NCBI RefSeq assembly: GCF_000281715.2
Contig: NZ_CP124576.1
Location: 1,061,501-1,125,500, forward strand
Direction of reading: 5' to 3'
Length of the DNA: 64,000 bases
DNA from: Sphingobium sp. AP49
Lineage (GTDB): Bacteria > Pseudomonadota > Alphaproteobacteria > Sphingomonadales > Sphingomonadaceae
Under the pieces are notes generated by a model, which ran no database searches, was not told the DNA's origin, and saw only the letters and a program-made list of their open reading frames with translations. The position numbers and the translations under genes were made by a program. Position 1 is the stretch's first letter. Each line of letters begins with the position of its first letter. Shown in pieces: positions 19,764 to 60,648 of this stretch.

Positions 19764-19832
19764 CGTCATTGCGAGCGTAGCGAAGCAATCCATCTCGCGC
19801 TGGTGGATTGCTTCGCTACGCTCGCAATGACG
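19764..19832. repeat. 69-bp palindrome, family A copy 1
   Basis: Two perfect 29-bp inverted arms begin with CGTCATTGCGAGCG and surround an 11-bp loop. The variable base in the arms is T on the left and A on the right, so pairing is kept. It is intergenic, in the gene-poor island. Confidence 0.9.
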
Positions 19833-41205: not shown

Positions 41206-41287
41206 CGTCATGCCAGCGAAGGCCGGCATCTCACTTTCTCAATGAGATCAGGAAGGAAGAGAGACCCCAGCCTTCGCTGGGGTGACG
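41206..41287. repeat. 82-bp inverted-arm element, family B copy 1
   Basis: A left arm starting CGTCATGCCAGCGAAGG and a right arm ending CTGGGGTGACG are inverted relative to each other, about 28 bp apart. Each arm folds on its own around a GAAG/CTTC loop. It fills the gap between ftsY and yciB. Confidence 0.85.
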
Positions 41288-43494: not shown

Positions 43495-43563
43495 CGTCAT
43501 TGCGAGCGCAGCGAAGCAATCCACGTCAGCGCGGTGGATTGCTTCGCTGCGCTCGCAATGACG
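43495..43563. repeat. 69-bp palindrome, family A copy 2
   Basis: Perfect 29-bp arms starting CGTCATTGCGAGCGCAGCG surround an 11-bp loop. It differs from copy 1 by C instead of T in the left arm, with G in place of A on the right. It lies between mtaB and dapF. Confidence 0.9.
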
Positions 43564-52770: not shown

Positions 52771-52874
52771 CCGTTCGGGCTGAGCGAAGTCGAAGCCCAC
52801 GCCTGAGCGCCAGCGAAGGCAAGTCACCTCGCTAACGCTCGGCGGAGCCCTTCGACTTCGCTCAGGGCGAACGG
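52771..52874. repeat. Family C paired palindromic repeat
   Basis: CCGTTCGGGCTGAGCGAAG (52771) and its inverted counterpart ending CTCAGGGCGAACGG (52874) frame 46 bp. Each arm forms its own hairpin, GGGCT/AGCCC on the left and GCCCT/AGGGC on the right, so the stem bases are swapped but still pair. It ends just before the gshB ribosome-binding site. Confidence 0.8.
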
Positions 52875-53880: not shown

Positions 53881-53962
53881 CGTCATCCCAGCGAAGGCTG
53901 GGATCTCTCTTTCTGGCTTCGGAATAGAAATAAGTGGGATGCCAGCCTGCGCTGGCATGACG
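53881..53962. repeat. 82-bp inverted-arm element, family B copy 2
   Basis: The left arm CGTCATCCCAGCGAAGGC and the right arm ending GCGCTGGCATGACG are inverted. The element has the same length as copy 1, and the arm pairs keep their stems (CCC/GGG on the left, GCC/GGC on the right). It lies between gshB and the DedA gene. Confidence 0.85.
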
Positions 53963-56008: not shown

Positions 56009-56035
56009 CGTCACCCCAGCGAAGGCTGGGGTCTG
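56009..56035. repeat. Left half-arm of the family B element
   Basis: CGTCACCCCAGCGAAGGCTG and the following bases match the left arm of the 82-bp element. It ends 6 bp before the stop codon of the GIY-YIG gene. There is no right arm next to it. Confidence 0.85.
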
Positions 56036-56041
56036 TGGCCT

Positions 56042-56332
56042 TCAAACGATATGGTCGAAGAGATCATCCCAATCCGGGTTGGCCTGTTCGATCAGGCGGA
56101 TTTCCCAATCGCGCTTCCAGGCCTTGAGCGCTTTCTCCCGACTGATCGCCAGCAGGATATCCGTGTGATGTTCGACGAGGACCAGACGTGTCAGCCCATA
56201 TTTGCGGCAGAAAATCGATCCGGTGCCGCGCCGAGGTTGATCGATGCGCGCGGCGAGATCGGCGGTGACGCCGATATAGAGGACGCCGCACGGCTTGTTG
56301 GTCATGATGTAGGTATAGCCGCCCTGCGCCAT
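56042..56332 (-). CDS. Small GIY-YIG nuclease
   Basis: The 96-residue protein is a stand-alone GIY-YIG domain. GYTYIMTNKPCGVLYIGVT contains both halves of the name motif, followed by an Arg, a Tyr/Arg helix and REKALKAWKRDWEIRLIEQANPDW. Most relatives have WEH-x-x-G where this one has IDQPRRG, so one conserved His is lost. Such proteins are predicted DNA endonucleases and occur in many copies in sphingomonads. Here both flanks are half-arms of a dispersed palindrome (56009-56035 and 56358-56384), which suggests that the gene and repeat move together. Confidence 0.88.
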   Translation of the reverse strand: MAQGGYTYIMTNKPCGVLYIGVTADLAARIDQPRRGTGSIFCRKYGLTRLVLVEHHTDILLAISREKALKAWKRDWEIRLIEQANPDWDDLFDHIV

Positions 56333-56357
56333 CCGGCGATGCTACATATATAGGCCT

Positions 56358-56384
56358 GAGATGCCAGCCTTCGCTGGCATGACG
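56358..56384. repeat. Right half-arm of the family B element
   Basis: GAGATGCCAGCCTTCGCTGG followed by CATGACG matches the right arm of the 82-bp element. It lies 25 bp upstream of the GIY-YIG start codon and pairs with the left half-arm at 56009 in inverted orientation. Confidence 0.85.
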
Positions 56385-59055: not shown

Positions 59056-59124
59056 CGTCATTGCGAGCGTAGCGAAGCAATCCATTGCAGACCCGTGGAT
59101 TGCTTCGCTACGCTCGCAATGACG
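59056..59124. repeat. 69-bp palindrome, family A copy 3
   Basis: Perfect 29-bp arms starting CGTCATTGCGAGCGTAGCG are joined by an 11-bp loop. It lies between nadA and cls and is the same subtype as copy 1. Confidence 0.9.
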
Positions 59125-60579: not shown

Positions 60580-60648
60580 CGTCATTGCGAGCGCAGCGAA
60601 GCAATCCATGTTGCACCGATGGATTGCTTCGCTGCGCTCGCAATGACG
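60580..60648. repeat. 69-bp palindrome, family A copy 4
   Basis: Perfect 29-bp arms starting CGTCATTGCGAGCGCAGCG are joined by an 11-bp loop. It starts 8 bp after the cls stop codon and belongs to the same subtype as copy 2. Confidence 0.9.

Follow-up and report, generated by a model that had tools for sequence, protein, structure and literature searches.

A small GIY-YIG nuclease gene of Sphingobium sp. AP49 lies between two inverted REP-type hairpins, each tagged with CGTC, and most homologous genes that we collected are framed in a similar way, with the hairpin sequence following the nuclease clade. The partnership between nuclease and REP is well supported by sequence comparison, which shows framing, its generality, clade-specific pairing, genome-wide co-occurrence, repeated cassettes, presence/absence polymorphism, one inversion and one apparently collapsed locus. 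Based on these data, we propose that the locus is probably a REPtron-like element, in which a clade-specific GIY-YIG nuclease bounded by its own inverted CGTC hairpins would drive their spread. The locus lies in a window of 64 kb, the whole stretch of DNA that was analysed (G000:C1:1061501-1125500 of the 4.5-Mb AP49 genome, G000). Coordinates without a prefix refer to this window.

The nuclease gene occupies 56042..56332 on the minus strand and encodes 96 aa, a single catalytic domain matching Pfam PF01541 (E 3.4e-9, 37.3 bits against a cut-off of 22.6); a search of the NCBIfam models gave no match. The left hairpin (56009..56035, plus strand) reads CGTC-ACCCCAGC-GAAG-GCTGGGGT-CTG, with the CGTC tag pointing outward, an 8-bp stem, a GAAG loop and a CTG tail. 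The right hairpin (56357..56384, minus strand) is inverted relative to the left one, also has its tag outward, and reads CGTC-ATGCCAGC-GAAG-GCTGGCAT-CTCA on the other strand. The two arms are not identical, with 81% complementarity over 37 nt. As single-stranded DNA the left hairpin is predicted to fold at -9.5 kcal/mol (z -4.7), a value equalled by none of 200 shuffles, and it is of the same family and orientation as the hairpins at other nuclease loci. The earlier note had placed two arms and a 291-bp nuclease gene at 56009-56384, positions that the sequence bears out, and had described the arms as halves of a palindrome; each is instead a full 27-base hairpin of the CGTC-tagged REP type. 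The gene-less 82-bp elements that it reported at 41206 and 53881 are likewise present (41206..41287 and 53881..53962); each consists of two copies of this hairpin whose tags point outward. Of the relatives compared, two lack the first of these pairs at the syntenic position and a third has it.

CGTC REPs, according to Di Nocera et al. 2013 (PMC3733652), comprise CGTC-1 to CGTC-4, including Neisseria dRS3 and Rickettsia RPE-4/RPE-6; they carry a CGTC, TGTC or CCTC tag, a stem of 8-9 bp, a loop of 4-5 nt and a short tail, commonly occur in pairs, and have sphingomonads among their carriers. The window elements have the CGTC tag, an 8-bp stem, a 4-nt loop, a 3-nt tail and paired copies, and their hairpins fit the CGTC-1 type. 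Tails of the 369 hairpins from the collected loci mostly begin with C, with CCA in 168.

A second REP family, CGTCATTGCGAGCGNAGCGAAGCAATCCA, is represented by four gene-less pairs within the 64-kb window. One pair lies at 19764..19832; that at 43495..43563 is missing at the syntenic spot in three relatives and present in one; that at 59056..59124 is missing in L176, L177 and L180 and present in L172; and that at 60580..60648 is missing in all six relatives displayed for the spot. The nuclease-bearing cassette of this family lies at G000:C1:2350740 (L003). The repeats of a further pair, at 52771..52874, form a third family (CCGTTCGGGCTGAGC...GCTCAGGGCGAACGG); elsewhere, repeats of this type frame a second subfamily of GIY-YIG nucleases. 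The spacer of one dimer, at G000:C1:3372937, resembles the joined inner ends of a nuclease cassette by eye, and from this one spacer comes the idea that gene-less pairs might be MITE-like.

Profile search located PF01541 at six places in the source genome. Translation identifies one as UvrC (L005), and in another (L001, G000:C1:2009366) a methyltransferase frame, presumably of the TrmJ type, is fused to a GIY-YIG domain that belongs to the second subfamily; the flanks of L001 hold a weaker inverted repeat (score 17.5). The remaining four are small free-standing GIY-YIG genes, the ones that the search family built on the four nucleases finds in this genome; all are framed by inverted CGTC hairpins (4/4), which fall into three REP families. 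The GAAG-loop family frames two of them, the window gene and L004; L002 is framed by CGTC-ATGCTGAA-CTTGT-TTCAGCAT, and L003 by the second-family hairpins. A 25-base pattern of the window hairpin occurs 25 times across the 4.5 Mb of the genome, and the backward control has none. Four of the 25 copies frame two small GIY-YIG genes, that of the window and that at G000:C1:3546184.

The structural model of the window nuclease (pLDDT 93.5) is a bare 96-aa domain without a separate DNA-binding domain. Its nearest folds are UPF0213 protein BH0048 (1ZG2) and then Slx1, at probabilities of 1.00 and 0.98 with weak E values of at least 0.0075; 1ZG2 was also matched by sequence profile (E 1.6e-7). The catalytic Y, Y, R, E and N of the GIY-YIG superfamily, to which the above-cut-off Pfam match also assigns the protein, are highly conserved: Y8 in 117/117 relatives with a letter at that position, Y19 in 116/118, and R29, E66 and N85 in 118/118 aligned relatives. 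His33, which we equate with His31 of I-TevI, is kept in 115/118, and the window nuclease is one of the three exceptions, with Pro33. Its orthologue in a sister species (G166) has His at position 33, and the other cassette framed by this REP family, at G000:C1:3546184, also keeps the histidine. The substitution may therefore have inactivated the window copy, so the GAAG REPs of this genome may depend on the other one.

To see how general the framing is, the four source-genome nucleases were aligned and used for a search, from which 80 loci in named genomes were taken, the best 80 of at least 577. A locus was counted as framed when the inverted-repeat score between its 200-bp flanks was 15 or higher. 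Framing was found at 67 of these best 80 of at least 577 nuclease loci versus 6/572 other ORFs in the same loci, 2/136 control ORFs of 450 bp or less, and 50/7281 intervals of the same length. Under a strict rule, with a tagged hairpin and outward tag on both sides, the counts were 48/80 nuclease loci versus 1/572 ORFs. Grouped by record titles, many of them of MAGs, the framed loci among these best 80 of at least 577 were 47/50 in Alphaproteobacteria, 12/16 in other or unspecified Proteobacteria and 8/14 in others, the last including records of Nitrospirae, LCP-89, Bacteroidetes, Omnitrophica and Uhrbacteria. Within the window's own family, a homologue is present in 107/149 genomes, and 53/56 loci were framed at the threshold with 250-bp flanks. 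A Pseudomonadota sample was chosen against the bias of best hits toward the neighbourhood of the window: 299 genomes of the phylum were searched, 75 matched, and 60 full-length places outside the window's family were taken down the match list in order, with a few skipped. Of these, 45/60 were framed versus 0/68 control ORFs. A homologue in Neisseria gonorrhoeae has CGTCATTCCCGCGCAGGCGGGAATC-type, dRS3-like repeats on both sides.

These results support the earlier note's reading of the locus as a REP/RAYT-like layout with a GIY-YIG nuclease. Two doubts raised there, that copies in other genomes might have no arms and that arms might be equally common around other genes, are not borne out: unframed copies are a minority (13 of the best 80 of at least 577, 3/56 in the family, 15/60 in the phylum sample, and 8/27 in the second subfamily), and framed control ORFs are rare in both samples. 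Both plasmid homologues inspected, in Rhizobium tumorigenes and Rhizobium sp. K1/93, are unframed too (score 7.5), and in S. meliloti pSymB the hairpin rule gave no hairpin within the first 50 kb.

The second GIY-YIG subfamily is represented by L166 (genome G016), a nuclease of a different GIY-YIG type framed by CCGTTCGTCCTGAGCCTGTCGAAGGACGG, with homologues in 25/190 genomes of the class. Framing was detected at 19/27 testable loci of this subfamily, mostly by repeats of the CATCCTGAGCTTGTCGAAGGATG kind, versus 0/14 ORFs, a small control, and 2/211 intervals. The repeat that frames this subfamily is of the widespread CTGAGCTTGTCGAAG type, so the association between nuclease and repeat is not confined to CGTC REPs.

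The hairpins that frame a nuclease follow its clade. By eye, nucleases with GGW-YI-TNK pair with CCAGC-GAAR-GCTGG REPs, those with RxPCVYILAS pair with CTGAACTTGTTTCAG REPs, and those with GGWVYIMADRYRG pair with CCCGGGCTTGACCCGGG REPs. Among the loci used for statistics (118/133, those with framing), REP similarity between genomes correlated with protein identity at a Spearman coefficient of 0.36 over 6846 non-independent pairs. The relation also holds inside single genomes: nuclease pairs less than 50% identical shared their REP in 0/25 cases, those 50-70% identical in 9% of 11, and those more than 70% identical in 21/21. When REPs were shuffled among the nucleases of each genome, which holds genome and lineage fixed, none of 500 shuffles reached the observed correlation of 0.43 (shuffle mean 0.18). 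Part of this covariation is accounted for by the copying of whole cassettes, in which gene and flanks are inherited together.

Nuclease clade and REP also co-occur across the 149 genomes of the family, under thresholds that we set ourselves and in tests that ignore phylogeny. REP1 (GAAR) was present in 18/19 clade-1 genomes versus 30/130 others, with mean copy numbers of 12.3 versus 1.8, and REP2 (CTTGT) in 26/26 clade-2 genomes versus 34/123 others, with 20.2 versus 2.9 copies. Cross-pairing was much weaker: the GAAR REP occurred in 13/26 clade-2 genomes versus 35/123 others, and the CTTGT REP in 11/19 clade-1 genomes versus 49/130. After subtraction of two framing copies per carrier, REP1 stayed in 16/19 and REP2 in 22/26 genomes. 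One clade-1 genome had no REP1, and the REP-bearing genomes among the others (30/130 for REP1, 34/123 for REP2) had no matching clade.

Cassettes are also multiplied, gained and lost. Copies within one genome (G139, G111, G071 and G021) resemble one another over the whole cassette, both REPs included, and the resemblance ends within about 0-50 bp outside; G071 has 17 nuclease matches, and several of the multiplied copies carry in-frame stops, as in a decaying mobile family. For the window locus, synteny was followed through nadA in 61 genomes of the genus, with 40 regions compared. The cassette is present in one close relative, L177; L176 and L178 have short spacers, the corresponding spacer of L171 and L174 holds a gene-less pair, and L172 has a remnant of the right REP. 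The second GAAG cassette of the source genome (L024, G000:C1:3546132-3546528) is 397 bp long, as is its counterpart in G177 (L238). These two lie at the same place and share outer flanks, with the gene inverted (88% identity inverted, 61% direct).

Four inspected records of Sphingobium megaplasmids (TomMM15, TomTYG73, TomTYG46 and TomMM7A; L269-L272) carry a cassette between fnrL and the gene of a response regulator, and that of TomTYG73 has a frameshift. At the same spot TomTYG64 has a single palindrome that bears CGTC on either end (L275), TomTYG74 has a slightly degraded one (L277), and no cassette was seen in TomTYG72, TomTYG65 or S. herbicidovorans. The TomTYG64 palindrome looks like a scar left when a cassette collapsed over a direct repeat of 8 bp; the palindrome may instead have preceded the cassette. 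Host recombination, or slippage from one REP to the other, could also have turned the gene round and produced the collapsed palindrome without the nuclease.

The arrangement recalls the REP/RAYT system, in which an HuH enzyme and GTAG REPs stand in a REP-gene-REP layout (PMC8266576). The two systems have several traits in common (PMC8266576, PMC3733652): inverted REPs on either side of a small nuclease-like gene, gene-less pairs scattered through the genome, a hairpin with a tetranucleotide tag next to it, and co-variation of enzyme and REP. As in a REPtron, the REPs that border the gene here also occur dispersed at other places of the genome. However, the two defining features differ, as the enzyme is GIY-YIG (PF01541 only) rather than HuH/Y1 and the tag is CGTC rather than GTAG, and there are many cassettes per genome, whereas TnpA-REP is described as mostly single copy. 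The CGTC super-family spans five phyla and is entered in PMC3733652 with 'association to TPAse genes: -', seemingly without a dedicated transposase; here, in contrast, the linked gene is a GIY-YIG nuclease. The term GIY-YIG does not occur in PMC3733652 or in a 2025 survey of REPs (PMC12306157), and a light search of the literature found no paper linking GIY-YIG genes to REPs. MITEs and insertion sequences also have terminal inverted repeats around a gene and gene-less derivatives, but here there is no DDE, serine or Y1 transposase, and the inverted repeats are themselves hairpins. With respect to fold, the closest proteins are UPF0213 and other small GIY-YIG proteins (1ZG2, 1YWL) and Slx1, a eukaryotic nuclease that works in complex with Slx4. 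Unlike the window nuclease, the 1ZG2 and 1YWL proteins had no reported link to repeats that we saw.

We propose a plausible route by which the nuclease could move REPs. When the DNA becomes single-stranded, as it does in replication, a REP would fold into a hairpin, and the cognate nuclease would recognise its stem, loop and tag and nick at or near CGTC. The freed REP-(gene)-REP unit would then be copied or rejoined by host repair in a different intergenic region, and the same nuclease would act in trans on gene-less REP pairs, which would be non-autonomous derivatives. The sequences strongly imply pairing and recognition; recognition of the hairpin as such, tag cleavage, the repair step and the role of the nuclease as the cause of REP spread are what we infer. 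GIY-YIG chemistry is hydrolytic, and we know of no strand transfer by GIY-YIG nucleases; the nuclease alone could therefore not join ends, which counts against the proposal. The ragged junctions, the minority of unframed loci and the REPs in genomes that lack the matching clade weigh against it as well.

The most serious rival is a homing-type endonuclease that targets REPs, a parasite that cuts REP pairs already in place, lodges between the two REPs and spreads by repair copying, while the REPs themselves spread otherwise, e.g., through a Y1 transposase. GIY-YIG domains do occur in homing endonucleases, and those of the I-TevI/I-BmoI type nick at specific sites and spread by repair. The nuclease shares its catalytic domain and residues with them, the gene-less pairs of the same family that occupy the intergenic slot of the window cassette in L171 and L174 speak for it, and specificity for one REP family would likewise yield covariation between clade and REP. 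However, the flanks are two whole REPs, not the halves of a split site, and the single domain has neither an intron nor the additional DNA-binding domain of the homing enzymes. The matching REP is also far commoner where the nuclease is present, in both clades, as would more readily be expected of a nuclease that spreads the REPs; moreover, PMC3733652 reports RAYT/IS200 genes in many CGTC carriers and none flanked by CGTC units. We thus regard the homing-type reading as unlikely.

Less likely still is a conservative host function, in which a domesticated structure-specific nuclease trims or resolves REP hairpins or cruciforms, the flanking REPs serve as regulatory sites or terminators, and their spread is not its doing. 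The resemblance to Slx1, a nuclease of branched DNA, would suit this reading, as would the intergenic position of REPs, often near gene ends (PMC3733652). Gain and loss between close species, multiplication within one genome, decay by stops and frameshifts, and different REPs on different copies nevertheless indicate the behaviour of a mobile element, not of a housekeeping gene. That common intergenic repeats merely happen to surround a small gene, the REPs being only terminators, is very improbable. REPs are indeed common between genes, but control ORFs are rarely framed, including those of small size, and pairing is clade-specific within genomes; unless the control ORFs are biased, they already refute coincidence.

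The REPtron-like reading matters because palindromes of the REP type rank with the most common repeats in bacteria, yet no enzyme was known for the CGTC super-family in the 2013 survey (PMC3733652). The pairing of nuclease and REP, readable from sequence, names a candidate enzyme for CGTC REPs, and the many natural enzyme-substrate pairs inside one genome lend themselves to specificity tests, making the origin of REPs directly testable. If the nuclease drives the REPs, a second, unrelated enzyme class would have reached the REPtron layout, and the family would be a source of small hairpin-specific nucleases. A broader proposition, which seems to us evenly poised, is that most of the bacterial palindromic repeats that have no RAYT are served by small free-standing GIY-YIG nucleases as their dedicated enzymes. 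Each clade would have its own stem-loop as both end and dispersed substrate (CGTC REPs, including dRS3-like ones, and the CATCCTGAGCTTGTCGAAGGATG type), moved by hairpin cleavage and host repair in Pseudomonadota and several other phyla. Were this true, it would amount to a route of DNA mobility without the usual transposase.

No target-site duplication was seen in the species-level comparisons (nadA synteny and flanks in four close relatives), in which the junctions were uneven and 10-25 extra bases stood outside the tags, and we therefore claim neither a target site nor a duplication. Different REP families share one intergenic slot in sister species (L212 and L214 versus L003), which suggests hot spots. 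A GCGGAC/GTCCGC hairpin motif recurs in the flanks of the cassette copies of G139, G021 and G111, which raises the idea of an insertion target. Outside the REPs near L113, L143, L144, L152, L157, L160 and L162 there is a GCGGACGT/ACGTCCGC motif, which may be a favoured target or an earlier palindrome.
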